From contig NZ_JAAGKM010000016.1 in the NCBI RefSeq assembly GCF_019308355.1, positions 1-58,766 of the forward strand: a stretch of DNA of 58,766 bases. Direction: 5' to 3'. Under the pieces are notes generated by a model, which worked only from the letters and a program-made list of their open reading frames with translations, searched no databases and had not been told where the DNA came from. Shown piece by piece: positions 19,335-48,121 of this stretch (positions within the stretch are counted from its first letter, which is position 1; the number at the start of each line of letters is the position of its first letter). Source of the stretch: Empedobacter falsenii. Lineage in GTDB: Bacteria > Bacteroidota > Bacteroidia > Flavobacteriales > Weeksellaceae. The translations under genes and the position numbers were made by a program.

Positions 19335-19397
19335 ATGAAACAAAACGGATTAAATACAATCATTTCAATTACGACGACTTCTAGTGTTCACACTTAG
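19335..19397 (+). CDS. thrL: Threonine operon leader peptide
   Basis: A 20-codon ORF, MKQNGLNTIISITTTSSVHT, lies 91 bases before thrA. It has five Thr, three of them consecutive, and three Ile, as expected of a ribosome-stalling leader that senses charged threonine and isoleucine tRNA. It sits directly upstream of a terminator hairpin and alternative pairings, so it is part of an attenuator. It was found by reading the leader; the symbol follows the analogous E. coli gene by function, not by homology. Confidence 0.8.
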   Translation: MKQNGLNTIISITTTSSVHT

Positions 19398-19470
19398 AGG
19401 AGTTTTGTTATGTATTTAATTCTAAAAAAATAATGCAAAAGCATCTTCTCAAAAGGAAGATGCTTTTTTT
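19376..19470 (+). promoter_or_regulatory. thr operon transcription attenuator
   Basis: Three mutually exclusive pairings are visible. A pause hairpin joins CTTCTAGTGT to ACACTTAGAGG across the Thr/Ser codons and the leader stop. An antiterminator joins GAGGAG (19397-19402) to CTTCTC (19445-19450). The terminator joins GCATCTTC (19441-19448) to GAAGATGC (19456-19463), followed by seven T. Stalling at Thr codons would free GAGGAG to block the terminator. The transcript then runs into thrA at 19489. Confidence 0.75.
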
Positions 19471-19488: not shown

Positions 19489-21942
19489 ATGAAAGTTTTA
19501 AAATTCGGAGGAACATCAGTCGGATCGGTAGAAGGTATCCGCGCGGTCGTAGAAATTGTTAAACAGGAAAAGCAACAAAATAACTCGATTATTTTGGTTG
19601 TGTCTGCTATTTCTGGTTTGACCAATTTATTAACCAAAATGTCTGAAGAAGCTTCATCAGGAAATTTTGGTGAAAATGATTTAAAACTTTTTCAAGACAA
19701 ACATTTCGAAATTGTAAAAGCTTTAATCGATGTGCCGAATCAAAATCCGATTTTAACAAAATTAAAATTGTTGATGAATGAGTTGGAAGCATTATTAGAA
19801 GGGGTGGAAATTCTGAAAGAATTAAGCCCTCAAACAAAAGATTTGATTTTGAGTTTCGGCGAAAGATGTAGTGCTTTATTAATAGCAAAAGTAATGCAAG
19901 AGCATGTTGGAAATTCATTGGCGATTAATGCATCAGATTATATTTTGACTGATCATAATTTTGGTCAAGCGAATGTTATCGAGGAAAAATCGTTTCAGAA
20001 TATTCAACAATTAGCAAAAGATTATTCGGATAAATTATTAGTTGTAACAGGGTTTATTGCTGCTAATGAAGAAGGACGAGTGACAACTTTGGGAAGAGGA
20101 GGTTCTGATTACACTGCGGCTTTGATTGGTGCGGCTTTACATGCAGAACAAATTGAAATTTGGACAGATGTAAATGGAATGATGACGGCGGATCCTCGTT
20201 TTGTGAACAAAGCTTTTTCGTTAGAAAATTTATCGTATACAGAAGCGATGGAATTGTCGTATTTCGGTGCGAAAGTGATTTATCCGCCAACAATGGCTCC
20301 AGCTTTTAAACTTCGAATTCCGATTTTAATTAAAAACACATTTCAACCGGATTTTGAGGGAACAAAAATTCAGTTCGATTCGCAACCAACAGATTATCCA
20401 ATTAAAGGAATTTCGTCGATCAAAGATATTGCATTAGTCAATATAAAAGGAAGCGGCTTGGTTGGCAAATTGGGCTTTAGTGGAAAACTTTTTTCACTTT
20501 TAGCGCAACATCATATCAACATTGTGTTGATTACGCAATCTTCGTCAGAGCATAGTATCACGCTTGCCATTCATCATAATGAAGTCGAAAAAGCAAAGCA
20601 ATTAATTGAAGAAGAGTTTTGTTTGGAAATTGCAGCAAAATGGTTGGAACCAATTGAAATTGAAGAAAATCTCGGAATTATTGCAATTGTTGGAGAAAAC
20701 ATGAAGAAAATGGTTGGTGTTTCGGGCAAGTTATTTTATGCATTAGGACGAAATGGAATCAATGTCAGAGCGATTGCGCAAGGTTCTTCGGAGTATAATA
20801 TTTCGGTTGTGATTAACGAAAATGATTTGTCAAAAGCTTTAAATGCGGTACATGATGCGTTTTTTAATCATTTGAAAAAAACAATTCATGTTTTCAATGT
20901 TGGAGTAGGAAATATTGGGTCGACATTTTTAAATCAATTAGAAAAACAGAAAGATTTTTTAGCAAAAAATAATGATATCGAAATAAAATTGGTTGGATTA
21001 TCAAATTCAAAAAAAATGATGTTTGATGAAAACGGAATTAATTTATCGAATTGGAAAAATGAATTAGAAAATTCTTCTTCTCCAGCTGATTTGAATGAAT
21101 TTATCCAAAAAATGAAACAGTATAATTTACCAAATTGTGTTTTTGTAGATAATACTGCGAGTTCTGATTTGCCAAATTATTACAAACAAATTTTTGAAAG
21201 CAGTATTTCGGTTGTGACATGTAATAAAATTGCGAATTCATCTTCTTATCAAGAGTATAAAAAATTGAAAGAAACTGCTCGAAAATATGGTATTGATTTT
21301 CTTTACGAAACAAATGTTGGAGCAGGTTTACCAATTATTAGCGTGTTGAAAGATTTAAGAATGAGTGGAGATCAAATCTTAAAAATTGAAGCAATTTTAT
21401 CAGGAACAATTTCGTATATATTTAATCATTTTAAAGGTGAAAATACATTTGCCGAAATTGTAAAAAAAGCGCAAGAATTAGGTTATACAGAACCAGATCC
21501 TCGCGATGATTTGAGTGGAATAGATTTTATGCGAAAAATGTTGATTCTTGCTCGTGACAATGGTTACGAAATTGAAGCGGGAGATGTAAAAATCGATTCT
21601 ATTTTGCCTAAATCTTGTTTAGAAGCTGCAACTGTAGAAGATTTTTATCAAGAATTAGTCAACGAAAATGATTATTTCGAAAAGATAAAACATCAAGCAG
21701 ATGAGGAGCAGAAAGTGATTCGTTACATCGGGATTTTAGAAGATGGAAAAATATCAATTTCGTTAGAATTGGTGGATAATCAACATCCGTTTTATGCCTT
21801 GTCTGGAAGCGATAATATTATTTCCTTTACAACAGCGCGTTACAAGGAACGTCCTTTGGTTGTGAAAGGACCTGGAGCTGGTGCAGAAGTTACAGCAGCT
21901 GGCGTTTTTGCAGATTTAGTTAATATAAGTTCAATACGATAA
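19489..21942 (+). CDS. thrA: Bifunctional aspartokinase / homoserine dehydrogenase
   Basis: Catalyses the first and third steps from aspartate to threonine. The 817-residue fusion has an aspartokinase domain (KFGGTSVG at residue 4; GRGGSDYTAA, about 203), two ACT regulatory repeats (about 310-455; GVSGKLFYALGRNGINVRAIAQ) and a homoserine dehydrogenase domain from about 462 (VGVGNIGSTFLNQL; NVGAGLP; LSGTISYIFN). The ACT repeats imply feedback inhibition by threonine. It is the first gene of thrABC, with three bases to thrB, and is controlled by the leader at 19335. Confidence 0.97.
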   Translation: MKVLKFGGTSVGSVEGIRAVVEIVKQEKQQNNSIILVVSAISGLTNLLTKMSEEASSGNFGENDLKLFQDKHFEIVKALIDVPNQNPILTKLKLLMNELEALLEGVEILKELSPQTKDLILSFGERCSALLIAKVMQEHVGNSLAINASDYILTDHNFGQANVIEEKSFQNIQQLAKDYSDKLLVVTGFIAANEEGRVTTLGRGGSDYTAALIGAALHAEQIEIWTDVNGMMTADPRFVNKAFSLENLSYTEAMELSYFGAKVIYPPTMAPAFKLRIPILIKNTFQPDFEGTKIQFDSQPTDYPIKGISSIKDIALVNIKGSGLVGKLGFSGKLFSLLAQHHINIVLITQSSSEHSITLAIHHNEVEKAKQLIEEEFCLEIAAKWLEPIEIEENLGIIAIVGENMKKMVGVSGKLFYALGRNGINVRAIAQGSSEYNISVVINENDLSKALNAVHDAFFNHLKKTIHVFNVGVGNIGSTFLNQLEKQKDFLAKNNDIEIKLVGLSNSKKMMFDENGINLSNWKNELENSSSPADLNEFIQKMKQYNLPNCVFVDNTASSDLPNYYKQIFESSISVVTCNKIANSSSYQEYKKLKETARKYGIDFLYETNVGAGLPIISVLKDLRMSGDQILKIEAILSGTISYIFNHFKGENTFAEIVKKAQELGYTEPDPRDDLSGIDFMRKMLILARDNGYEIEAGDVKIDSILPKSCLEAATVEDFYQELVNENDYFEKIKHQADEEQKVIRYIGILEDGKISISLELVDNQHPFYALSGSDNIISFTTARYKERPLVVKGPGAGAEVTAAGVFADLVNISSIR

Positions 21943-24312: not shown

Positions 24313-25596
24313 TTATCCAATCATTAATGAAAAAAGTTTGTTGTCTGTGTTAAGATATTGATAGTCGAAATGATGATTTTCTAACCTAAAAATTAAACCA
24401 TCTAAATCTTCTTTTTTGTCTAATTCAATGCCAACTACTGCTGGACCTGTTTCTTTGTTGTTTTTTTGCGTGTATTGGAAATAGGTGATGTCATCATTTT
24501 CACCCAAAACTTCGTTCACTAATTCTTTCAAAGCGCCGGCACGTTGAGGAAAATTGATAATGAAATAATGTTTCAAACCTTCATATTGCAAACTTCTTTC
24601 TTTTATTTCCTCCATTCGCGTAATGTCGTTGTTGCTTCCGCTAAGCACACAAACCACATTTTTTCCTTTGATTTCTTCCTTAAAAAAATCTAAAGCCGAA
24701 ACACTCAAAGCGCCTGCTGGTTCTACAACAATTGCATCTTCATTGTACAAACGCAAAATGCTCGAACAAACTTTTCCTTCCGGAACAGCACAAGTTGTTT
24801 CTAAACCTTCTGCACAGATTTTGTAGGTTTTTTCACCTGCTTTTTTTACAGCTGCGCCATCTACAAAAGGGTCAATCTTCGCTAATGCAACAGATTGTTT
24901 TTGTTTGATAGCTTCTGCCATACTTGCTGCGCCACTCGGCTCTACTCCAATAATTTTGGTGTTTGGACTAAGTGTTTTCATCACAGAAATAACGCCAGAT
25001 GCTAAACCTCCACCACCAATTGGCACGAAAATATAATCGATTGGTTGATTGCATTGATTCAAAATTTCTAATGCAACCGTTCCTTGTCCTGCAATTACTT
25101 TTTCATCATCAAAAGGATGAATAAATGTAATATTTCCTTCTTGCGATAATTGATGCGCAAAAGCCGATGCATCATCAAATGTATCACCATGTAAAATGAT
25201 TTCGATTTGATCTTTACCAAACCATTTTACTTGTTTTATTTTTTGTTGAGGTGTCGTTGTAGGCATCACAATTTTGCCTTTAATGTTTAATTGTTGACAC
25301 GAATACGCCACACCTTGTGCGTGATTTCCTGCACTTGCGCAGATCACACCATTATTTTTTTCTTGTTCTGATAACTGAACGATTTTATTATAAGCACCAC
25401 GTAATTTGTACGAACGGACGACTTGTAAATCTTCTCGTTTTAGATAGACATTCGCATCAAATTGACGACTTAAATTTTCATTGAAATCGAAAGGAGTGTT
25501 TTTGGCAACTCCTTTCAAATTCATTTGTGCTAAGTTTACTTCGTCAAGCGAAACGCCTAAGGTCTCAGTTTTCTCACTTCTAAGTCCCTTTGTCAT
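24313..25596 (-). CDS. ilvA: Threonine ammonia-lyase (threonine dehydratase), biosynthetic
   Basis: Deaminates threonine to 2-oxobutanoate, the first step to isoleucine. The 427-residue PLP enzyme has the lysine motif VRSYKLRGAYNK (about 59-70), ASAGNHAQGVA and PIGGGGLASG. A single C-terminal regulatory domain (from about 345; HYFIINFPQRAGALKELV) makes it shorter than the two-domain E. coli enzyme and like the Corynebacterium form. It is the last gene of ilvDBNCA. It draws on the product of the neighbouring thrABC operon. Confidence 0.95.
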   Translation of the reverse strand: MTKGLRSEKTETLGVSLDEVNLAQMNLKGVAKNTPFDFNENLSRQFDANVYLKREDLQVVRSYKLRGAYNKIVQLSEQEKNNGVICASAGNHAQGVAYSCQQLNIKGKIVMPTTTPQQKIKQVKWFGKDQIEIILHGDTFDDASAFAHQLSQEGNITFIHPFDDEKVIAGQGTVALEILNQCNQPIDYIFVPIGGGGLASGVISVMKTLSPNTKIIGVEPSGAASMAEAIKQKQSVALAKIDPFVDGAAVKKAGEKTYKICAEGLETTCAVPEGKVCSSILRLYNEDAIVVEPAGALSVSALDFFKEEIKGKNVVCVLSGSNNDITRMEEIKERSLQYEGLKHYFIINFPQRAGALKELVNEVLGENDDITYFQYTQKNNKETGPAVVGIELDKKEDLDGLIFRLENHHFDYQYLNTDNKLFSLMIG

Positions 25597-25630: not shown

Positions 25631-27112
25631 TTATGCCGTTTTTATGGTTTTCATAGCAGTCATTGCTTTACGAAGTTTTTTTCCCACAGTTTCGACAGGA
25701 TGATTACGTAAAACATCATTTATGTGTACCAATGTCGCATTATCAACAGCATTGTCTTTTCCTTCGTTGTAATTTTTCCCAACAACATCTACGTTTACTT
25801 TTGTCATGAAATCTTTTAACAAAGGTTTACAAGCTTGATCGAAAAGATAACAACCGTATTCTGCTGTATCAGAAATCACTCGATTCATTTCGAATAATTT
25901 TTTACGCGCAATTGTATTCGCAATCAATGGTGTTTCATGTAAGGATTCGTAATAAGCAGATTCAGGTTTAATACCGGCTTCTACCATTGTTTCGAAAGCT
26001 AATTCAACTCCAGCACGAACAAAAGCAACCATTAATGTATAGTTGTCAAAATATTCTTGTTCTGTAATATTTGCATCGCCAGCTGGTGTTTTTTCAAAAG
26101 CAGTTTCACCAGTTTCAGCTCTCCATTTTAATAAGTTTTTGTCATCATTCGCCCAATCTTCCATCATTGTTTTACTAAATTCACCCGAAATAATATCGTC
26201 TTGATGTTTTTGGAACAATGGACGCATAATGTCTTTTAATTCTTCTGATAATTCAAAAGCTTTTACTTTAGCAGGATTGCTTAATCTATCCATCATACCG
26301 CTAACTCCGCCATGTTTTAAAGCTTCAGTAATGACTTCCACACCATATTGAACCAATTTTGAAGCGTAACCAGCATCAATTCCGTTTTCAACCATTTTAT
26401 CGAAAGAAAGAATAGAACCTGTTTGTAAAAGACCGCATAAAATGGTTTGTTCTCCCATTAAATCAGACTTTACTTCTGCCACAAAAGATGATTTTAAAAC
26501 GCCTGCTCTATGACCTCCAGTTCCTGCGCAATATGCTTTTGCTTGGTCAAGTCCTTTACCTTCGGGATCATTTTCTGGGTGAACTGCAATTAATGTTGGA
26601 ACTCCAAATCCTCTTAAATATTCTGCTCGAACTTCTGAACCTGGACATTTTGGAGCAACCATGATTACTGTAATATCTTTACGAATTTGTACACCTTCTT
26701 CTACGATATTGAATCCATGAGAATATAAAAGTGTAGCACCTTGTTTAATAAGTGGTTGAACAGTATTGATAACTTGCGTATGTTGTTTATCTGGCGTTAA
26801 ATTCGCAACAACATCAGCATTTGGGATTAATTCCTCGAAAGTACCAACTGTAAAATTATGACTTGTTGCATTTTTCCACGAATCTCTTTGTTGTTCAATC
26901 GCTTCTTTGCGTAATGCATACGAAACATCTAAACCGCTGTCGCGTAGATTTAATCCTTGGTTTAATCCTTGCGCACCGCAACCTACAATCACAATTTTTT
27001 TGCCTTTTAATGCTTCTGTACCTTTTGCGAATTCTGAGTTATTTAGAAATTCTGCTTGTCCTAGTTGATATAATTGGTCTCTTAATGATAGAGAATTAAA
27101 GTAATTAGTCAT
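25631..27112 (-). CDS. ilvC: Ketol-acid reductoisomerase, long (class II) form
   Basis: Isomerises and reduces acetohydroxy acids for valine, leucine and isoleucine. The 493-residue length matches the E. coli-type class II enzyme with a duplicated knotted domain. Visible are the NADPH-binding [17 protein letters not shown] (about 44-60) and the metal-site region [13 protein letters not shown] (about 213). It is the fourth gene of the ilv operon, 42 bases after ilvN. Confidence 0.97.
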
Positions 27113-27154: not shown

Positions 27155-27748
27155 TTACATCGTGAAAACTGAGTTTCCTTCGTTTAGGAATTCATTTTCG
27201 ATTACTTCTTTTGATGGCTCGTCTTTTTCGAATTGTAATAATTTTTCATGGAAACCAGCACTTGCTTTTATAATGGCTATTCTAGCTCCACGAACAAATT
27301 CTATTAAGCCATATTTAGTCAGCTCTTGTGTTAGATTATCAATTTCCTCACGATGACCAGCTGTTTCAAAAACTGTATAATCATTACGGATTACGACTGT
27401 GTTTGCACCATATTGACGTAACAAACGTTCTACATATGCCTTCTCTGCAATAATATTGGTTGGAACTTTGTATAAAGCTTGTTCTTGCCAAATTAATTCA
27501 TCATTATTGTTGAAATAAGCTTTAAGAACGTCTATTTGTTTCTCAATTTGCATGCAAAGTTTTCGAACAACTTCTTCAGATTCTTCAATTACAATTGTAA
27601 ATCGGTGTACATTTTCTATTTCTGATGGAGAAGTGCTTAAACTTTCAATATTAATTTTTCGTCGAGTAAAAATTCCTGCAACTCTTCCCAAAATTCCTAT
27701 GGAATTTTCTGTATATAGCGTAATTGTATATTCTTGTTTTGAGTCCAT
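27155..27748 (-). CDS. ilvN: Acetolactate synthase small regulatory subunit
   Basis: Regulatory partner of IlvB that confers valine feedback. The 197-residue protein has an N-terminal ACT domain (about 5-80; TLYTENSIGILGRVAGIFTR) and the C-terminal ALS domain (IAEKAYVERLL, about 100). It starts six bases after ilvB, so translation is coupled. The symbol ilvH would be equally fair. Confidence 0.93.
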   Translation of the reverse strand: MDSKQEYTITLYTENSIGILGRVAGIFTRRKINIESLSTSPSEIENVHRFTIVIEESEEVVRKLCMQIEKQIDVLKAYFNNNDELIWQEQALYKVPTNIIAEKAYVERLLRQYGANTVVIRNDYTVFETAGHREEIDNLTQELTKYGLIEFVRGARIAIIKASAGFHEKLLQFEKDEPSKEVIENEFLNEGNSVFTM

Positions 27749-27754
27749 AATAAT

Positions 27755-29515
27755 TTATTTTAATCTAATTTCAGAAACACTTGTACCTTGTTCTACCATA
27801 GGAAATACATTGTTTTCTTTTCCTACCATAACTTCTAAAAGATAAGAACCATCATGCTCTAACATCTCTTTTAAAGCATTTTTCAAGTCGTTTCTTGCTT
27901 CTATTTTTTGACCTTCTATTTGGTAGGCTTTTGCAAGTGCTACAAAATCTGGACTTGTAATATCTACGAAAGAATAGCGTTTGTCGTTGAATAATTCTTG
28001 CCATTGACGCACCATTCCAAGGAAGCTATTGTTTAGGATTAATATTTTTACTTTAGCTCCAAATTGCATAATCGTTCCCATTTCTTGTAACGTCATTTGG
28101 AAACCACCATCTCCACAAACCATGACAATGTCTTTTTCTGGTGCTCCATACCATGCTCCAATTGCTGCAGGTAAACCAAATCCCATTGTTCCTAATCCTC
28201 CTGATGTAACCAAAAGCTTAGAATCTTTGAATTTCGCGTAACGACAAGCCGACATCTGATGTTGTCCTACGTCTGTCACAATAACGGCTTCTCCTTTAGT
28301 TAATTCATTTAAGGTATTGATAACCTCAGCCATAGATATCACATCAGTTGTTGGATGGAATTCTTTATTAATAACTTCTGTACGTTCTTCTTTTTCGAGA
28401 TCTCTAAATTCTTTTAACCATTGAGAATGATCATTAGGATGAATCAAATTTGTTAATAACAGAAGTGTTTTTTTACAATCTCCCCAAACAGGGACAGCAA
28501 CTTTTACATTTTTACCAATCTCTGCTGGGTCAATATCAAGATGAATCACTTTGGCTTGTTTTGCATATTTGTCTAAGCGTCCAGTTACGCGATCATCAAA
28601 CCTCATTCCTATGGCAATTAATACATCGCAATCATTTGTTTTAACATTAGGTGCATAATTACCATGCATACCTAATAAACCTACATATTGTGGATGATCA
28701 GTATCTAAAGAACTTAATCCCATCAAAGTTGTTGCTACAGGAATTCCAGATTTTTCTAAGAAATCGTTTAATTCTTGTTCAGCTTTTCCAAGTAATATTC
28801 CTTGACCAATAATCGCAAATGGTTTTTTTGCTTGATTAATAAGTTTAGCAGCAGCTTTTATATATTCAGTTCTTATCTCTGGTTCTGGTCTATAACTGCG
28901 AACATGCGTGCATTTCTCATACTTTTTCTTTTCGATAAGTTGTATTTGAGCATTTTTTGTAATGTCAATTAAGACAGGTCCTGGTCTTCCAGAGCGAGCA
29001 ATATGAAATGCTTTTGCTAGAACATCATTTATTTCTTCTGCATCAGTAATTTGATAATTCCATTTCGTGATAGGATTAGTAATATTGATAACGTCAGTTT
29101 CTTGAAAAGCATCCGTTCCTAAAAGAGAAGCGAAAACTTGCCCTGTGATACATACAATAGGATTGCTATCAATCATGGCATCTGCAATTCCAGTGACTAA
29201 ATTCGTTGCGCCTGGACCACTCGTGGCAAAAGCTACACCTACTTTTCCTGAAGTTCTTGCATAACCTTGCGCAGCGTGAATGCCTCCTTGTTCATGACGA
29301 ACTAAAATGTGTTCTAATTTATCTTTGTAATCATACAAAGCATCATATATAGGCATAATTGCGCCACCAGGATAGCCAAAGACTGTTGTAACTCCTTCGG
29401 ACAATAAAGCGTTAATAATCGCTTGTGAACCTGAAATTTGAGTTGGTTTATTGGTCAGTAAGACATCCTTCTGAAGCGTTTCCGACTTGCTTTGCGTATT
29501 TGTATAAGACTCCAT
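27755..29515 (-). CDS. ilvB: Acetolactate synthase large catalytic subunit
   Basis: TPP enzyme that condenses pyruvate with pyruvate or 2-oxobutanoate. The 586-residue protein has the catalytic-glutamate region [16 protein letters not shown] (about 73-88) and the TPP motif from GDGGFQM to NNSFLGM (about 468-500). The start is 68 bases inside the end of ilvD; no other ATG precedes the conserved [16 protein letters not shown], so the overlap looks real. The first 24 residues are an extension absent from most relatives. Confidence 0.95.
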
Positions 29516-31139
29516 TTTTTACTTTTAATGCGGGTTGTTTCCAGTTATTTTTTCGATTTTCTAATGTTTTTTCATCAATCAAAAGGTTTAATTCATTTTT
29601 GTTGATGTCAATTTCGATGAGATCATTATTTTCGACTAATGCGATTGGACCTCCTTCAAAAGCTTCTGGTGTTATGTGACCGACGACAAATCCGTGTGTT
29701 CCTCCGCTAAAACGTCCGTCTGTAATCAAAGCGACTTTATCTCCTAATCCAGCTCCAATAATGGCAGATGTTGGTTTCAACATTTCTGGCATTCCAGGGC
29801 CACCTTTCGGACCTTCGTTTCGGATGACGATAACGCTTCCAGCTTTGATTTGTAAATCTTCAATTGCTTTTAAAACTTCAACTTCGCTATTAAAAACTTG
29901 TGCTTTTCCTTTAAAATAAAAACCTTCTTTTCCAGATATTTTAGATACCGATCCGCCAGGAGCAAGGTTTCCGTAAAGCATTTGTAAGTGTCCAGTTTCT
30001 TTTATGGGATTAGATAATGGACGAATAATATTTTGTTTAGAGAAATCTAAATCAGGAACCGATGCTAAATTTTCGGCTAATGTTTTTCCAGTAACCGTTA
30101 AACAACTTCCATCGATTAAATCTTCTTGTAACATATACTTTAAAACAGCAGGAACTCCACCAACTTTACTCAAATGTTCCATCAAGTATTTTCCACTAGG
30201 TTTTAAGTCTGCTATTACTGATGTTTTATCGTTAATTGCTTGTATATCGTCTAATGATAATTTGATATTCATAGTCGCTGCAATTGCTAATAAGTGCAAA
30301 ACAGCATTTGTGCTTCCGCCTAAAACAACAATTGTTTTGATTGCATTTTCTAAAGAATTCTTCGTGATGATATCACTTGGTTTAATATCTTTTTCTAATA
30401 AAATTCTTAGATAATGTGCCGCAGTTGTACATTCGTTTTTCTTTTCTTGACTAAGAGCAGGGTAAGACGAAGAATAAGGTAAACTCATTCCCATTGCTTC
30501 AATCGCCGCTGCCATTGTGTTTGCTGTATACATTCCGCCACAAGCACCTGGACCAGGACAAGCATTCTGAATGATTCCACAAAAATCTTTGTCATCAAGA
30601 TTTCCGTTTAATTTTTTTCCTAATGCTTCGAAAGCAGAAACAATGTTTAATTCCTCTTCTTTGTAATGTCCCGGAGCAATTGTTCCACCATAAATCATGA
30701 TCGAAGGACGGTTTAAACGTCCCATTGCCATAATCGATCCTGGCATGTTTTTATCACAACCAGGAATAGTAATTACGCCATCGTAAAAGTGTCCTGCACA
30801 AACAGTTTCGATAGAATCTGCAATGATTTCTCTACTTACTAAAGAGTAGCGCATTCCTGAAGTTCCGTTGGTAATTCCATCGCTAATTCCGATAGTGTTG
30901 AACTTCAATCCGATTAGGCTTTCGGCTTTCATTCCATCTTGTACCAACTGTGCAAATTGATTTAGGTGCATATTGCAAGTATTTCCATCGTACCCCATGC
31001 TTGCAATTCCGATTAATGGTTTTTTAAGGTCTTCGTTTGTTAAGCCAATCCCATGTAACATCGCTTGTGACGCGGGTAAAGTGTCATCTTGCGTAACGGT
31101 TCGACTATGTTTGTTTAGTGCTTTGTTGTTGTTTTTCAT
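29448..31139 (-). CDS. ilvD: Dihydroxy-acid dehydratase
   Basis: Fe-S enzyme of branched-chain synthesis. The 563-residue product has cysteine motifs GCDKNMPGS and [18 protein letters not shown], and the C-terminal [17 protein letters not shown]. The ATG at 31139 is preferred over a GTG one codon upstream. It is the first structural gene of the ilv operon and lies behind two attenuators. A ten-codon ORF ([10 protein letters not shown]) sits between the second terminator and ilvD and ends at its start; it may be accidental. Confidence 0.96.
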
Positions 31140-31175
31140 CACTATTTATTTGACATTGTTTGTATTAAAAACATA

Positions 31176-31206
31176 AAAAAAAGCCACCCTGAATAAAGGT
31201 GGCTCA
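31176..31206 (-). terminator. Attenuator terminator 2 of the ilv operon
   Basis: On the minus strand AGCCACC pairs with GGTGGCT and is followed by eight T. The 5' arm AGCCACCTTT (31195-31204) can instead pair with AAAGGTGGTT (31236-31245) at the end of the second leader ORF, which would prevent termination. Confidence 0.8.
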
Positions 31207-31229
31207 TAAAAAATCGTTCAAAAAATTTG

Positions 31230-31304
31230 TCATAAAACCACCTTTCCTAATCGTAAGACCAAGACTAAAATAATAATGATAATAATGACGAAATTGTTTT
31301 GCAT
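31230..31304 (-). CDS. Branched-chain leader peptide 2 (ilv operon)
   Basis: A 24-codon ORF starting MQNNFV and then six consecutive Ile, followed by LVLVLRLGKVVL. Sixteen of the 24 residues are Ile, Leu or Val, as expected of an ilv leader whose translation senses the three amino acids together. The last codons overlap the antiterminator arm AAAGGTGGTT, and terminator 2 follows within 30 bases. It is the promoter-distal of two such leaders in tandem. Confidence 0.82.
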   Translation of the reverse strand: MQNNFVIIIIIILVLVLRLGKVVL

Positions 31305-31331
31305 AATATTGTTTAATTAATTTTTCTCCAT

Positions 31332-31362
31332 AAAAAAAGCCACCTCGTTAAGAAGTGGCTTT
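31332..31362 (-). terminator. Attenuator terminator 1 of the ilv operon
   Basis: On the minus strand AGCCACTTC pairs with GAGGTGGCT (one G-U pair) and is followed by seven T. Its 5' arm CCACTTC (31352-31358) can pair alternatively with GGAGTGG (31394-31400) at the end of the first leader ORF. Confidence 0.78.
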
Positions 31363-31386
31363 AATTGTTATTTTGTACGTACACAA

Positions 31387-31455
31387 CTAATTACCACTCC
31401 CTGGGATAAGAATGACTAAAATAATCAAGTTGATAATGTTGTGAACTAATTTCAT
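31387..31455 (-). CDS. Branched-chain leader peptide 1 (ilv operon)
   Basis: A 22-codon ORF starting MKLVHNIINLIILVILIPG, with six Ile, four Leu and two Val. It ends in sequence that can pair with the 5' arm of terminator 1. It is the promoter-proximal leader; its ATG is about 19 bases downstream of a good -7 box. It resembles leader 2 in length and composition but not in codon order, so the pair is either an old duplication or convergent. Confidence 0.8.
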   Translation of the reverse strand: MKLVHNIINLIILVILIPGSGN

Positions 31456-31473
31456 TTTCTTTTTTTGATAAGC

Positions 31474-31507
31474 CAAAGCTAGGATTAATTTTTTTAACTT
31501 AGCTCAA
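31474..31507 (-). promoter_or_regulatory. Candidate promoter of the ilv leader/operon
   Basis: On the minus strand TTG (31505-31507) and TAGCTTTG (31474-31481, a perfect TAnnTTTG) are 23 bases apart, just upstream of leader peptide 1. It is divergent from the mfd promoter. Confidence 0.5.
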
Positions 31508-31579
31508 CTTTTTTTATAAATTTTCCGAAAAATTTTCATTAATTGAAAATTCGCATTTTAACATTGCTTTTTTTAAAGA

Positions 31580-31614
31580 TTGTTTAAAAATAAGTTTATA
31601 AAATTTTATATTTG
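31580..31614 (+). promoter_or_regulatory. Candidate mfd promoter
   Basis: TTG at 31580-31582 and TATATTTG at 31607-31614 (a perfect TAnnTTTG box), 24 bases apart. Transcription would begin near 31620, only a base or two before the TTG at 31622 that best fits the start of Mfd. Confidence 0.4.
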
Positions 31615-31621
31615 CAAAACT

Positions 31622-34600
31622 TTGGAACAGAAAACTATTCACAACGTTTTTAGCTTATACGATTCTTCAGATTTCGTACAGAAGCTTATTGTCAATTTTA
31701 AAAATAATCCACAGCATAAAGTCAATATCAAAGGTTTTTTAGGTTCAGGATTGAGCATTATAACTGGTCATTTATATGATCGTGTTGCGCGTCCTACGAT
31801 TCTAATTTTTGATGATAAAGAAGAAGCGGCTTATGTGTTAAATGATTTGGAAACTTTGTTTGATAAAGAACAAATTCTATTTTTTCCGTCTTCTTATAAG
31901 CGTCCTTACGAAATTGAGGAAGTAAATAATGCAAATGTTGTTATTAGAACAGAGGTTTTAAATGTATTATCGCATTCGAAACGCCCAAAAATTGTGGTGA
32001 CATATGCGGAAGCCTTGTCTGAAAAAGTAGTGACAAAAAAAGCGCTTTCTACGAATACACTTAAAGTGAAGGTTGGAAATGATTTAGGAATTGATTTCTT
32101 AACGGAGGTTTTATCTTCTTATAATTTTCATCGTGTTGATTTTGTTTCTGAACCGGGAGAATTCTCGATTCGTGGTGGAATTATAGATGTTTTTTCGTTT
32201 TCGAATGAGCATCCTTATCGAATTTCGTTGTTTGGTGATGAGGTGGAAACCATCAGAACGTTTGATATCGAGAATCAATTGTCCATTGCAACGACAAAAG
32301 AAATTACGATTATTCCAAATCTTGAGAGTAAATCGATTAACGAAAAACGAGAAAGTTTCTTAGAATATATTTCGAAAGATAGTTTAGTTATCGCGAAAAA
32401 TATTTCTGTTTTAGCGAAACAAATCACCAAGAATTTTGAACAAGCGGAAGTTGCTTTTTCAGAATTGAAAGGAGAAATTAAACAAGCAGAACCGAATCAT
32501 TTATTTTTGAATGAGAATGCATTTCTTCAACAAATTTCATCTTATGGAGTTATTGAATGTTCCATGAAATCTTATTTTGAAACAGTTGAAGAAATAGAAT
32601 CACCATTCAAACCTCAACCAAGTTTTAATAAGCAATTCGAGTTATTAATTGATGATTTGAATGAGCATAAAGCCGAAGGTTTCAAAAATGCACTGATTTG
32701 TTCCAATGAAAATCAAATCAAACGTTTCGAAGAAATTTTTGATGATATCGGAAAAGAAGTTTCATATATTCCCGTTTTGGGATCTATTTATCAAGGTTTT
32801 ATTGACGAAGAAATCAAATTAACGTGTTATACGGATCACCAGATTTTTGGTCGATATCATAAATTCAATCTTCGAAATTCATTTTCCAAAAAAGAAGCGA
32901 TTACGCTAAAGGAAATCAATTCGTTGCAAGTTGGAGATTTTGTGACGCATATAGATTATGGGATCGGAAAATTTGCAGGTTTGGTACGATTGAATAATAA
33001 TGGCGTAACGCAAGAATCAATCAAATTGATTTATCAAAATAATGATATTCTGTATGTTAATATTCATTCGTTGCATAAAATTGCAAAGTTTAGAGGAAAA
33101 GATGGCGCTGAGCCAAAAATTTCAAAACTTGGATCTCCAGCTTGGAAAAATTTAAAGAATAAAACCAAAGCTAAAGTAAAAGAAATTGCTTTCGATTTGA
33201 TTAAATTATATGCGAAACGCCGTGCCAGAAAAGGTTTTGCGTATTCGCCTGATACGTATTTGCAAAATGAGTTGGAAGCATCTTTTATTTATGAAGATAC
33301 GCCCGATCAGTACAAAGCGACGCAAGATGTAAAAACGGATATGGAATCTGAACGCCCAATGGATCGTTTGGTTTGTGGAGATGTTGGTTTCGGGAAAACA
33401 GAGGTTGCGATTCGTGCGGCGATGAAAGCAGCTGTTGATGGAAAACAAGTTGCTGTTTTAGTGCCAACAACGATTTTAGCTTTTCAACATTTCAAGACAT
33501 TTTCAGAGCGTTTACGAGATTTGCCTGTGAAAGTTGCTTATCTCAATCGATTTGTAACAGGAGCAAAGAAAAAAGCTGTTTTAGATGGTTTAAAATCTGG
33601 TCAAGTTGATATTGTGATAGGAACGCATCAATTGGTTAATCCAAAAATTGAATACAAAGATTTGGGATTATTAATTGTGGATGAGGAACACAAATTTGGT
33701 GTTGGTGTAAAAGATAAATTGAAAACACTTCGCGAAAATATTGATACATTAACCTTGACTGCGACGCCAATTCCGCGTACACTTCAATTCTCGTTGATGG
33801 CTGCGCGTGATTTATCGGTTATCAAAACTCCTCCACCAAATAGACAACCTGTCGATACGCAATTGGTTGGTTTTAATGAAGAGATTTTCCGTGATGCGAT
33901 TATGTATGAAATGCAACGTGGTGGACAAGTTTATATCATTCACAATCGTGTGCAATCGTTAAAAGATATTGCTGGAATGGTACAACGATTAGTTCCTGAT
34001 GCGAGTGTGGCGATTGGTCATGGACAAATGGATGGGAAAGAATTAGAAGCCGTTTTACTCGATTTTATTGATGGTCGATATGATGTTTTTGTGTCAACAA
34101 CTATTATCGAATCTGGTTTAGATGTTCCGAATGCGAATACGATTTTAATTAATGATGCGCAGAATTTCGGTTTGGCAGATTTGCATCAAATGCGTGGACG
34201 TGTTGGTCGTAGTAACCGCAAAGCGTTTTGTTATTTGGTTGCGCCACCACTTTCGGTTTTAACGGACGAAGCGCGTAAACGTTTGCAAGCAATTGAGCAG
34301 TTTTCTGATTTAGGATCAGGATTCAATATTGCGATGAAAGATTTAGAAATTCGTGGAGCTGGAAATCTTTTAGGTGCTGAACAAACAGGATTTATGATGG
34401 ATATCGGTTTCGAAACGTATCAAAAAATCTTGAATGAAGCGATTGAAGAATTGAAAGAAACAGATTTCAAAGATTTGTTCGAAGATCAAAAATCGGAAGA
34501 AGTAAAATCGTATGTATCGGATGTGCAAATTGATTCGGATTTACAAATTATGTTCCCCGACGAATACATTGAAAGTTCGGAAGAGCGTTTATTGTTGTAC

Positions 34601-34990
34601 AAAGAATTAGCTGATGTCGAAACTGAAACAGAATTACAAACGTTTAAAAATAATTTGATTGACCGCTTTGGAAAATTACCAATTGAAGCCGAAAATTTAT
34701 TGGAATCAATTCAACTGAAATGGATCAGTAAAAAATTAGGTTTCGAACGTTTGGTGATGAAAAATGGTGTTTTATTGGCTTATTTTATTAATAAACCACA
34801 AAGCGAATTTTATCAGTCAGATGAATTTAGATTAATTTTAAATTACGTTCAAAATAACCCTAAAAACATCAATTTTAAGGAAAAATCACCCAAAAAAGGA
34901 GAAGAGTATCCAACATTGTTAGTACGATTTGAACATATTAAAACTGTGCATGAAGCACTGCAAAATCTACAAAATTTATTAATTCATTAA
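31622..34990 (+). CDS. mfd: Transcription-repair coupling factor
   Basis: Removes RNA polymerase stalled at lesions and recruits the UvrABC system. About 1122 residues: a UvrB-like N-terminal part, the CarD-like RNA polymerase interaction domain (GDFVTHIDYGIGKFAG), the SF2 motor (GDVGFGKTEVAIRAA; DEEHKFG; TLTATPIPRTL; QMRGRVGRS) and the C-terminal TRCF domain. No ATG exists anywhere near the N-terminus. The TTG at 31622 is preferred to the TTG at 31580 because the latter would put a perfect -7 promoter box inside the gene and add a low-complexity leader. The start remains uncertain. Confidence 0.95.
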   Translation: MEQKTIHNVFSLYDSSDFVQKLIVNFKNNPQHKVNIKGFLGSGLSIITGHLYDRVARPTILIFDDKEEAAYVLNDLETLFDKEQILFFPSSYKRPYEIEEVNNANVVIRTEVLNVLSHSKRPKIVVTYAEALSEKVVTKKALSTNTLKVKVGNDLGIDFLTEVLSSYNFHRVDFVSEPGEFSIRGGIIDVFSFSNEHPYRISLFGDEVETIRTFDIENQLSIATTKEITIIPNLESKSINEKRESFLEYISKDSLVIAKNISVLAKQITKNFEQAEVAFSELKGEIKQAEPNHLFLNENAFLQQISSYGVIECSMKSYFETVEEIESPFKPQPSFNKQFELLIDDLNEHKAEGFKNALICSNENQIKRFEEIFDDIGKEVSYIPVLGSIYQGFIDEEIKLTCYTDHQIFGRYHKFNLRNSFSKKEAITLKEINSLQVGDFVTHIDYGIGKFAGLVRLNNNGVTQESIKLIYQNNDILYVNIHSLHKIAKFRGKDGAEPKISKLGSPAWKNLKNKTKAKVKEIAFDLIKLYAKRRARKGFAYSPDTYLQNELEASFIYEDTPDQYKATQDVKTDMESERPMDRLVCGDVGFGKTEVAIRAAMKAAVDGKQVAVLVPTTILAFQHFKTFSERLRDLPVKVAYLNRFVTGAKKKAVLDGLKSGQVDIVIGTHQLVNPKIEYKDLGLLIVDEEHKFGVGVKDKLKTLRENIDTLTLTATPIPRTLQFSLMAARDLSVIKTPPPNRQPVDTQLVGFNEEIFRDAIMYEMQRGGQVYIIHNRVQSLKDIAGMVQRLVPDASVAIGHGQMDGKELEAVLLDFIDGRYDVFVSTTIIESGLDVPNANTILINDAQNFGLADLHQMRGRVGRSNRKAFCYLVAPPLSVLTDEARKRLQAIEQFSDLGSGFNIAMKDLEIRGAGNLLGAEQTGFMMDIGFETYQKILNEAIEELKETDFKDLFEDQKSEEVKSYVSDVQIDSDLQIMFPDEYIESSEERLLLYKELADVETETELQTFKNNLIDRFGKLPIEAENLLESIQLKWISKKLGFERLVMKNGVLLAYFINKPQSEFYQSDEFRLILNYVQNNPKNINFKEKSPKKGEEYPTLLVRFEHIKTVHEALQNLQNLLIH

Positions 34991-46732: not shown

Positions 46733-48121
46733 ATGAATACGATTATTTTATCAGCACTTTCAGGTATTATTTTGATGTTTAGTGGATTCTACATCAAAAA
46801 TAATCGTGCCTTAAATATACTTTCTGTTGTTCTGTTTTTCGGAATGATTGTAGGAGGAATTTTCGACTTGAAAGGTTGCTCAATGTTCGCAGGAAAATTC
46901 GATAATATGATTGGACAATCGCTTTACGGCGTTTCGTTCTTTATCGCATTGGCAGGATTGGCAATTTTTTACTTATTGTTGAACAAAGATTCGTTTGGAA
47001 AAGTAGGAAAACATGTGGCAGAATATTATGCCTTAATTTTCTTCTCTTTTACAGGAATCGCAGTTTTAGCACAATTCCACAACTTAGTAATTATGTTCTT
47101 AGGAATCGAATTAATGTCAATTCCAATGTACATTATTGCAGGAACAAACAAAGAAAGTCTTAGAAGTACAGAAGCTTCTGTAAAATATTTCTTGATGGGA
47201 GCTTTCTCAACAGGAATTTTGATGTTAGGTGTAACATTTTTGTACGGCGCAACAGGAACTTTTATGGTTGATCAATTGGTAAACTATAACAAAGATTTCG
47301 AAACAATTTATTACGCAGGATGGTGTTTAATCATCTTCGCATTTTGTTTCAAAGTTTCTGCAGCACCGTTCCACGCATGGACACCAGACGTTTACGACGG
47401 AACACCAACTGTGTTTACATCGTTTATGTCGACAATCATCAAAGGAGGATCATTTTTAGGATTTATTTTAGTCCTAAAATCATTCCCAACAAATGTAGAA
47501 TATGCCGAATATTACCGTTTATTATTCGCGTCAATTATCATTTTGACGTTATTTATCGGAAACTTCGGAGCAGTTTCTCAAAAATCTGTCAAACGTTTGA
47601 TGGCTTATTCATCAATCGCGCAAGCAGGTTTCATGTTATTTGTTTTGTTCAATATCAATTCAGCTTCTAAAGAGGCTTTGATGTTCTATACGATTGCTTA
47701 TTCAGTTGCGAACTTCATTATTTTCTATGCGATTGATCAATTCAAAAATCCAAAATTTGAGAGTTTCATTGGTTTAGGAAAAGCAAATCCAGTTTTAGCA
47801 GCAGCGATGACAATTTCATTAATTTCATTAGCAGGTATTCCATTAACAGGAGGTTTCTTTGCGAAATTTATGGCGTTGAGTATTGGAGGAACAAACGATA
47901 AAAACCTATTTTTGATTGTAATTGCATTGGTTATGGCAGTTTTGAGTATGTATTATTACTTCAAAATCATCAACTACATGTATTTCAAAAAAGGGAAAAA
48001 CAAATTAAAAACACAAGACGGGTTAACAAATTTCCTTTTAATTATCGGAATGGTAATCTTAATTGTGATGGGAATTTTTCCAGGAATATTATCGTCATTT
48101 TTACAAACGCCAATGTGGTAA
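46733..48121 (+). CDS. nuoN: NADH-quinone oxidoreductase subunit N
   Basis: The 462-residue last subunit of the complex has FLGIELMSIPMYIIAG with the key Glu (about 126), FKVSAAPFHAWTPDVYDGTP and KRLMAYSSIAQAGFM. It closes an intact fourteen-gene nuoA-N operon with all subunits in the standard order, followed by a strong terminator. Confidence 0.96.
   Translation: MNTIILSALSGIILMFSGFYIKNNRALNILSVVLFFGMIVGGIFDLKGCSMFAGKFDNMIGQSLYGVSFFIALAGLAIFYLLLNKDSFGKVGKHVAEYYALIFFSFTGIAVLAQFHNLVIMFLGIELMSIPMYIIAGTNKESLRSTEASVKYFLMGAFSTGILMLGVTFLYGATGTFMVDQLVNYNKDFETIYYAGWCLIIFAFCFKVSAAPFHAWTPDVYDGTPTVFTSFMSTIIKGGSFLGFILVLKSFPTNVEYAEYYRLLFASIIILTLFIGNFGAVSQKSVKRLMAYSSIAQAGFMLFVLFNINSASKEALMFYTIAYSVANFIIFYAIDQFKNPKFESFIGLGKANPVLAAAMTISLISLAGIPLTGGFFAKFMALSIGGTNDKNLFLIVIALVMAVLSMYYYFKIINYMYFKKGKNKLKTQDGLTNFLLIIGMVILIVMGIFPGILSSFLQTPMW

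Follow-up and report, generated by a model that had tools for sequence, protein, structure and literature searches.

A predicted double leader-peptide attenuator before the ilvDBNCA operon of Empedobacter, and tandem leaders in related Flavobacteriales

In the stretch of Empedobacter falsenii DNA analyzed here (58,766 bases, hereafter the window, part of a 3.1 Mb genome), the ilvDBNCA operon is preceded by two short ORFs rich in isoleucine, leucine and valine codons, each followed by a terminator. Judged from sequence, the arrangement is very probably a double attenuator, in which translating ribosomes would control transcription of the operon at two gates in series. The original prediction of two attenuators in series is supported by conservation of both units in 7/7 genus genomes with a close IlvD, by a single upstream promoter motif with none between the units, and by the retention of alternative helices. 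Related Flavobacteriales carry other tandem pairs before branched-chain genes.

Organization of the leader

Direct reading of the minus strand places the two short ORFs and two terminators between ilvD and an mfd-like gene on the far side of the leader (Table 1). This reading confirmed the branched-chain codon counts originally given for the two ORFs, and the terminator with a T-run claimed after each ORF was found as a predicted hairpin in both cases, with 7 and 8 T. The statement that leader 2 opens with six isoleucine codons needed correction, since the run occupies codons 7-12.

Table 1. Features of the tandem leader, its operon and neighboring genes in the window
Feature	Position	Strand	Sequence or basis
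Promoter motif	31474..31481	-	TAGCTTTG; matches Bacteroidota -7 consensus TAnnTTTG; predicted single start for both units
mfd-like ORF	31580..34990	+	Named by sight
Leader ORF 1	31387..31455	-	MKLVHNIINLIILVILIPGSGN; 22 codons, 12 Ile/Leu/Val
Unit 1 region 1	31432..31446	-	GTTCACAACATTATC; partner region 2
Unit 1 region 2	31379..31400	-	GGAGTGGTAATTAGTTGTGTAC; partner region 1 or region 3
Unit 1 region 3	31352..31362	-	AAAGCCACTTC; terminator 5' arm
Unit 1 region 4 and T-run (terminator 1)	31332..31346	-	GAGGTGGC
Terminator 1, arms	31362..31336	-	AAAGCCACTTC/GAGGTGGCTTT; 7 T
Leader ORF 2	31230..31304	-	MQNNFVIIIIIILVLVLRLGKVVL; 24 codons, 16 Ile/Leu/Val
Unit 2 region 1	31274..31293	-	Parts TTTCGTCAT and ATCATT; partner region 2
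Unit 2 region 2	31225..31247	-	GGAAAGGTGG through ATGACAAAT; partner region 1 or region 3
Unit 2 region 3	31196..31205	-	GAGCCACCTT; terminator 5' arm
Unit 2 region 4 and T-run (terminator 2)	31175..31190	-	AGGGTGGC
Terminator 2, arms	31205..31181	-	GAGCCACCTT/AGGGTGGCTT; 8 T
ilvD	29463..31139	-	First operon gene; NCBIfam TIGR00110, above cut-off
ilvB	27758..29515	-	NCBIfam TIGR00118, above cut-off
ilvN	27158..27748	-	NCBIfam TIGR00119, above cut-off
ilvC	25634..27112	-	NCBIfam NF003557, above cut-off
ilvA	24316..25596	-	NCBIfam NF006390, above cut-off
Threonine-type leader ORF	19335..19397	+	MKQNGLNTIISITTTSSVHT
Terminator of threonine-type leader	19439..19465	+	
Bifunctional aspartate kinase/homoserine dehydrogenase gene	19489..21942	+	

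Both units were recovered by a detector with three requirements: an ATG-initiated ORF no longer than 45 codons, with 6 or more Ile/Leu/Val codons in 8; a terminator beginning no more than 70 nt downstream; and a pairing in competition with that terminator. With the same detector, not even a single unit appeared in 2000 dinucleotide-preserving shuffles of 31130..31560, in which terminators averaged 0.01 and ILV-rich ORFs 0.075 per shuffle. Run over both strands of the whole window, it returned the two units and one extra match (48050..48121), the end of a 462-codon ORF. A search of the genome with the 295-base leader gave no second match at E 0.001, and a scan of the whole window against Rfam gave no match at gathering scores. 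A further tiny ORF in unit 2, MTNFLNDFL, was dropped after inspection by eye, its frame continuing in G002 and ending at an early stop in G003. Elsewhere in the window, a single leader of the threonine type precedes a bifunctional aspartate kinase/homoserine dehydrogenase gene (Table 1).

Conservation within the genus

We compared 14 genomes of the genus, including that of the window. IlvD was found in eight of them, and in seven (the window included), with IlvD 89-100% identical, both units stand before ilvD. The comparison of these seven is based on their IlvD. Among the named species retrieved, Empedobacter sedimenti and E. tilapiae stand closest to the window, with IlvD identities of 98% and 96%. 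The presence of both ORFs in close relatives, which had been proposed as a check, holds in 7/7. In each unit all seven leaders retain an ORF with an Ile/Leu/Val run, ORF 2 ending earlier in two of them, and the six-isoleucine run of unit 2 is present throughout. Mean column identity in the leader alignment is 80%. The window and G004 have an exact 120-mer before ilvD in common, and because these two are very close the seven sequences are not fully independent.

The eighth genome with IlvD (G009, 65% identical) has a different leader pair, located before ilvE (named by an NCBIfam model) and ~0.9-1.2 kb upstream of ilvD. In the other six (G001, G005, G006, G008, G011 and G013), IlvD was without a match at E 0.001; these may be auxotrophs for branched-chain amino acids. 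In a genome from another genus of the family (G314), a single unit with AGCCAC-type arms lies directly before ilvD.

Alternative helices

Folding of the leaders gave a 1:2 helix in both units, a feature absent from the original prediction. The unit 1 helix joins GTTCACAACATTATC, close to the start of the ORF, to GGTAAT-TA-GTTGTGTAC; that of unit 2 is formed by TTTCGTCAT and ATCATT with ATGACAAAT and GGTGGT. These helices overlap region 2, for which the alternative partner is the terminator 5' arm (2:3), a pairing that excludes the terminator (3:4). The terminator-excluding pairings that had been proposed do form in the predicted folds of both units, and each unit has, as predicted helices, the full set of four segments (1:2, 2:3 and 3:4). 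Predicted energies in the window for 1:2, 2:3 and 3:4 are -14.1, -17.2 and -15.2 kcal/mol in unit 1 and -13.9, -17.3 and -13.4 kcal/mol in unit 2.

Across the seven leaders, the named pairs are formed in 96.9% (1:2), 89.6% (2:3) and 98.6% (3:4) of cells. Shifting the partners by 1-3 columns gives 37.1-60.3%, 40.5-58.1% and 27.8-65.2%, a comparison biased in favor of the actual structures because the window and G004 folds were their source. In the 1:2 helix of unit 1, 97.6% of cells are paired and 15 of the 18 pairs are invariant; the inner part of this fold is partly different in 3/7. In the 1:2 helix of unit 2, one C is bulged in the window and one pair lost, and eight pairs are kept in G004, G007 and G012. 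Cells of the 2:3 helices are paired in 94.1% and 85.7% in the two units.

The search for compensatory pairing in relatives, also proposed as a check, gave a few two-sided changes, and in these seven similar leaders they do not exceed the shuffle control. Columns 296/358 in the 1:2 helix of unit 2 hold C-G in three leaders and U-A in three, and are unpaired in the window. In the 2:3 helix of unit 2, two-sided changes occur in one leader each as A-U/G-C (E. sedimenti) and A-U/U-G. For 1:2, 65 of 500 shuffles of the seven similar sequences score as high for pairing and covariation and 328 of 500 for two-sided pairs; for 2:3, 134-221 of 500 score as high. The 3:4 control carries no information, with 500 of 500 as high, and the 3:4 covariation score is 0.086 for a slide of +1 vs 0.057 for the actual structure. 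Most helix pairs are invariant across the seven leaders. With so few and such close sequences, and with the shuffle control not exceeded, we do not take covariation as proof of the helices.

Proposed mechanism and the signal read by each gate

The anatomy, the conservation and the mutually exclusive predicted helices are read from sequence; from them we infer promoter use, ribosome stalling, termination and the shape of the response. Transcription would begin at a single start near 31470, shortly before leader 1. A ribosome that passes the Ile/Leu/Val codons and reaches the stop would cover region 2, leaving 3:4 to pair and RNA polymerase to terminate. When charged Ile, Leu or Val tRNA is short, the ribosome would instead stall in the run and mask region 1, in which case region 2 could pair with region 3 and the polymerase would read on. 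The same test would be repeated at unit 2 before ilvD, and both gates would have to open. If the gates act independently, readthrough would multiply, giving tighter repression and a steeper rise on starvation.

To place the ribosome, we modeled a footprint of our own choosing, from -18 to +12 nt relative to the first base of the A-site codon. Relative to the start of the region 2 core, the stop is found 10 nt downstream in 11 of the 14 species-unit cases. The exceptions are unit 1 of G003 (5 nt upstream) and unit 2 of both G002 and G003 (7 nt upstream). In 14/14 the modeled ribosome at the stop covers the region 2 core. The C-terminal end of the peptide varies among species while the modeled geometry persists.

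The original prediction allowed each gate to respond to a different amino acid, a reading that our analysis does not support. In this reading, unit 2 would respond mainly to isoleucine and unit 1 to general branched-chain supply, with AND logic between the two signals. The six-isoleucine run, kept in unit 2 in 7/7, and the more mixed composition of unit 1 point in this direction, as does the precedent of a two-signal leader in Salmonella mgtCBR (PMC3641672). However, in all seven species each leader has four or more Ile codons, two or more Val codons and one or more Leu codon at which a modeled stall would free region 2. We therefore consider it unlikely that the gates differ in signal, and for the same reason we set aside unit 2 as an isoleucine-specific gate. 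Under the ribosome model, two gates reading the same signal are a better fit than a separate gate for each amino acid. Because both gates could read the same amino acids, repression would be tighter when these are plentiful and switch-on steeper when they are scarce, which makes a sharper response from two gates plausible.

The two units also resemble duplicates. Aligned with each other, they score 49-81 in the seven species, where the maxima of 500 shuffled pairs in each species are 40-45. This suggests that they arose by duplication; shared constraint or function could add to the likeness. One unit might then be the working one and the other a decaying duplicate, and the weak unit 2 terminator of G003 (-5.8 kcal/mol) would be in keeping with decay. 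Yet both units retain their ORF, regions 1 and 2 and the terminator in 7/7, and where stops are displaced they still put the modeled ribosome on region 2 in both units, all of which makes decay of either unit quite improbable.

If there were two promoters, unit 2 alone would act on part of the transcripts. TAnnTTTG, the Bacteroidota -7 promoter consensus (PMC7366714), is matched upstream of unit 1 by TAGCTTTG, identical in 7/7 genus leaders and ending 18-20 nt before ORF 1, and a possible -33 TTG was seen by eye at 31505-31507. Between the ORF starts of the seven genus leaders no TAnnTTTG occurs. In the wider survey described below, 35 of 42 tandem loci likewise have none there, and the seven that do are without exception tandem pairs before ilvE, found in other genera of the family. 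This motif search covered the TAnnTTTG type of promoter alone; on the evidence from the genus leaders, a second promoter seems very improbable.

Least credible of all is a reading in which the leader ORFs specify small, hydrophobic peptides of the membrane and the terminators have no role: with 17-24 residues and many I/L/V the peptides do resemble membrane segments, but their C-terminal ends and stops vary while the RNA remains alike (unit 1 has an invariant GAGTGG, unit 2 an invariant TTAGGA and GGTGG), the genome has no second copy of the leader, and comparable ORF-terminator units stand before other ilv genes.

Tandem leaders in other Flavobacteriales

We surveyed 275 regions upstream of ilvD, of which 92 belong to the family, 24 to a second family of the order (f2) and 159 to other groups. 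The sample is uneven, consisting of best matches and hand-picked lists. To count tandem pairs, we relaxed the detector and applied an adjacency rule to the units. By this count 42 of the 275 regions have two adjacent units: 39/92 in the family, 3/24 in f2 and 0/159 in the others. At least one unit, possibly by chance in some, was found in 81/92, 7/24 and 71/159, respectively. Strict settings gave one unit in 94 regions, several in 20 and none in 123, out of 237 regions that include duplicates.

Two duplicates (L010 and L011, of L005 and L004) were excluded from the 275, which still contain a likely double without tandem units (L082/L149), some very close genomes, and four short regions kept in the denominators (L057, L097, L078 and L124, with 2, 115, 245 and 535 bases). 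L062 was discarded as a multi-unit locus by the adjacency rule, its units being >1 kb apart. The settings used with that rule miss the first unit of L172 and the second of L200, both of which were found at other settings. The detector also fires on other ILV-rich ORFs; at its loosest setting several matches look like 3' ends of an upstream gene (by eye, for example, in Sphingobacterium loci), so numbers from that setting are not used as counts. In G205 (L130 and L132), an intact ilvD is accompanied by another ilvD-like sequence that is split into two adjacent fragments, both with one internal stop.

TAnnTTTG occurs within 70 nt before ORF 1 in 40/42 tandem loci, against a background of 0.047 per 70 nt. 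The loci comprise at least three different tandem pairs, the first being the ilvD kind of Empedobacter. A second kind precedes ilvE and has AGCCTCCC and AGCCTTTCTC arms (G009, L115, L116, L118, L119, L121, L125 and L126); L157 and L172 are similar to it. Another ilvE kind is present in 24 of 56 regions of group g6, probably Chryseobacterium (L140, L141 and 22 of L242-L281). NCBIfam models name the first gene as ilvE in L009, L115, L140, L172 and L179. L179 and L200 appear to represent further kinds, L200 at looser settings only.

Many of the g6 pairs have a promoter motif that ends 4 nt ahead of the first ATG, and leader 1 may be leaderless there. In the 24 g6 leaders, the terminators exceed the shuffle control, being 99.4% paired, with 0 of 500 shuffles as high and two-sided changes in two pairs. 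Their antiterminators give a borderline result, matched by 54 of 500 shuffles in pairing and by 49 of 500 in covariation. L172 (genome G573) has three branched-chain units in series before ilvE-ilvD, and the near-identity of its second and third units suggests a recent duplication. Taken across the Flavobacteriia, we lean somewhat towards seeing same-signal attenuators, two or three deep, as a recurrent design for branched-chain operons, assembled repeatedly out of different units and acting as a multi-stage filter that would steepen the starvation response beyond that of a single attenuator.

Comparison with known systems

Single leader-peptide attenuators of ilv operons, such as enteric ilvGMEDA and ilvBN, are textbook examples, and leader-peptide attenuation usually provides one gate per operon. 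The enteric ilv attenuators have one unit, in contrast to the two complete serial units found here. Leaders of this class, including that of ilvBNC in Corynebacterium glutamicum, are like the present ones in having a short Ile/Leu/Val-rich peptide, alternative hairpins and control of ilv genes. For the C. glutamicum operon, the text available to us describes a leader-peptide attenuator (PMC11857589).

The closest precedent is Salmonella mgtCBR, whose single leader also contains two short ORFs and alternative hairpins. There, according to the accessible part of the report, ATP and proline are separate signals with additive effects, and the stem-loops are unlike intrinsic terminators (PMC3641672). 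In the leader described here, both units have intrinsic terminators and the same amino acids would be readable by both. Two leader ORFs also precede one gene in ermB; in the excerpt at hand, erm control is translational attenuation by antibiotic (PMC8274638), unlike the serial transcription termination by amino-acid supply proposed here. Tandem T-boxes and riboswitches likewise place two serial sensing modules before one operon, and as summarized in the available text they bind tRNA or metabolite directly (PMC7583486, PMC12452182), whereas here the proposed sensor is translation of a leader ORF.

Within Bacteroidota, clues for leader-peptide attenuation before amino-acid operons have been presented for Flavobacterium psychrophilum, and the available part of that report makes no mention of tandem units (PMC9723704), in contrast to the two seen here. 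Leader-like short ORFs are described in the accessible text on Bacteroides thetaiotaomicron (PMC7366714). A 2010 survey of premature terminators, again as excerpted, noted a second, tandem terminator in some rimP leaders, and its authors stated that before their Firmicutes case no leader peptide system was known outside Proteobacteria and Actinobacteria (PMC2965389). Our literature search, which covered mainly the main texts of open papers, returned no same-signal tandem leader-peptide attenuators before an amino acid operon.

The leader described here differs from the textbook single attenuator in that the proposed same-signal gates are placed in series. This raises the question of why these bacteria keep a second gate for the same signal. 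With such a series conserved in one genus and different pairs in its relatives, the contribution of the second gate to leakiness, steepness and noise becomes testable, and nature supplies one-, two- and three-unit leaders for the comparison.
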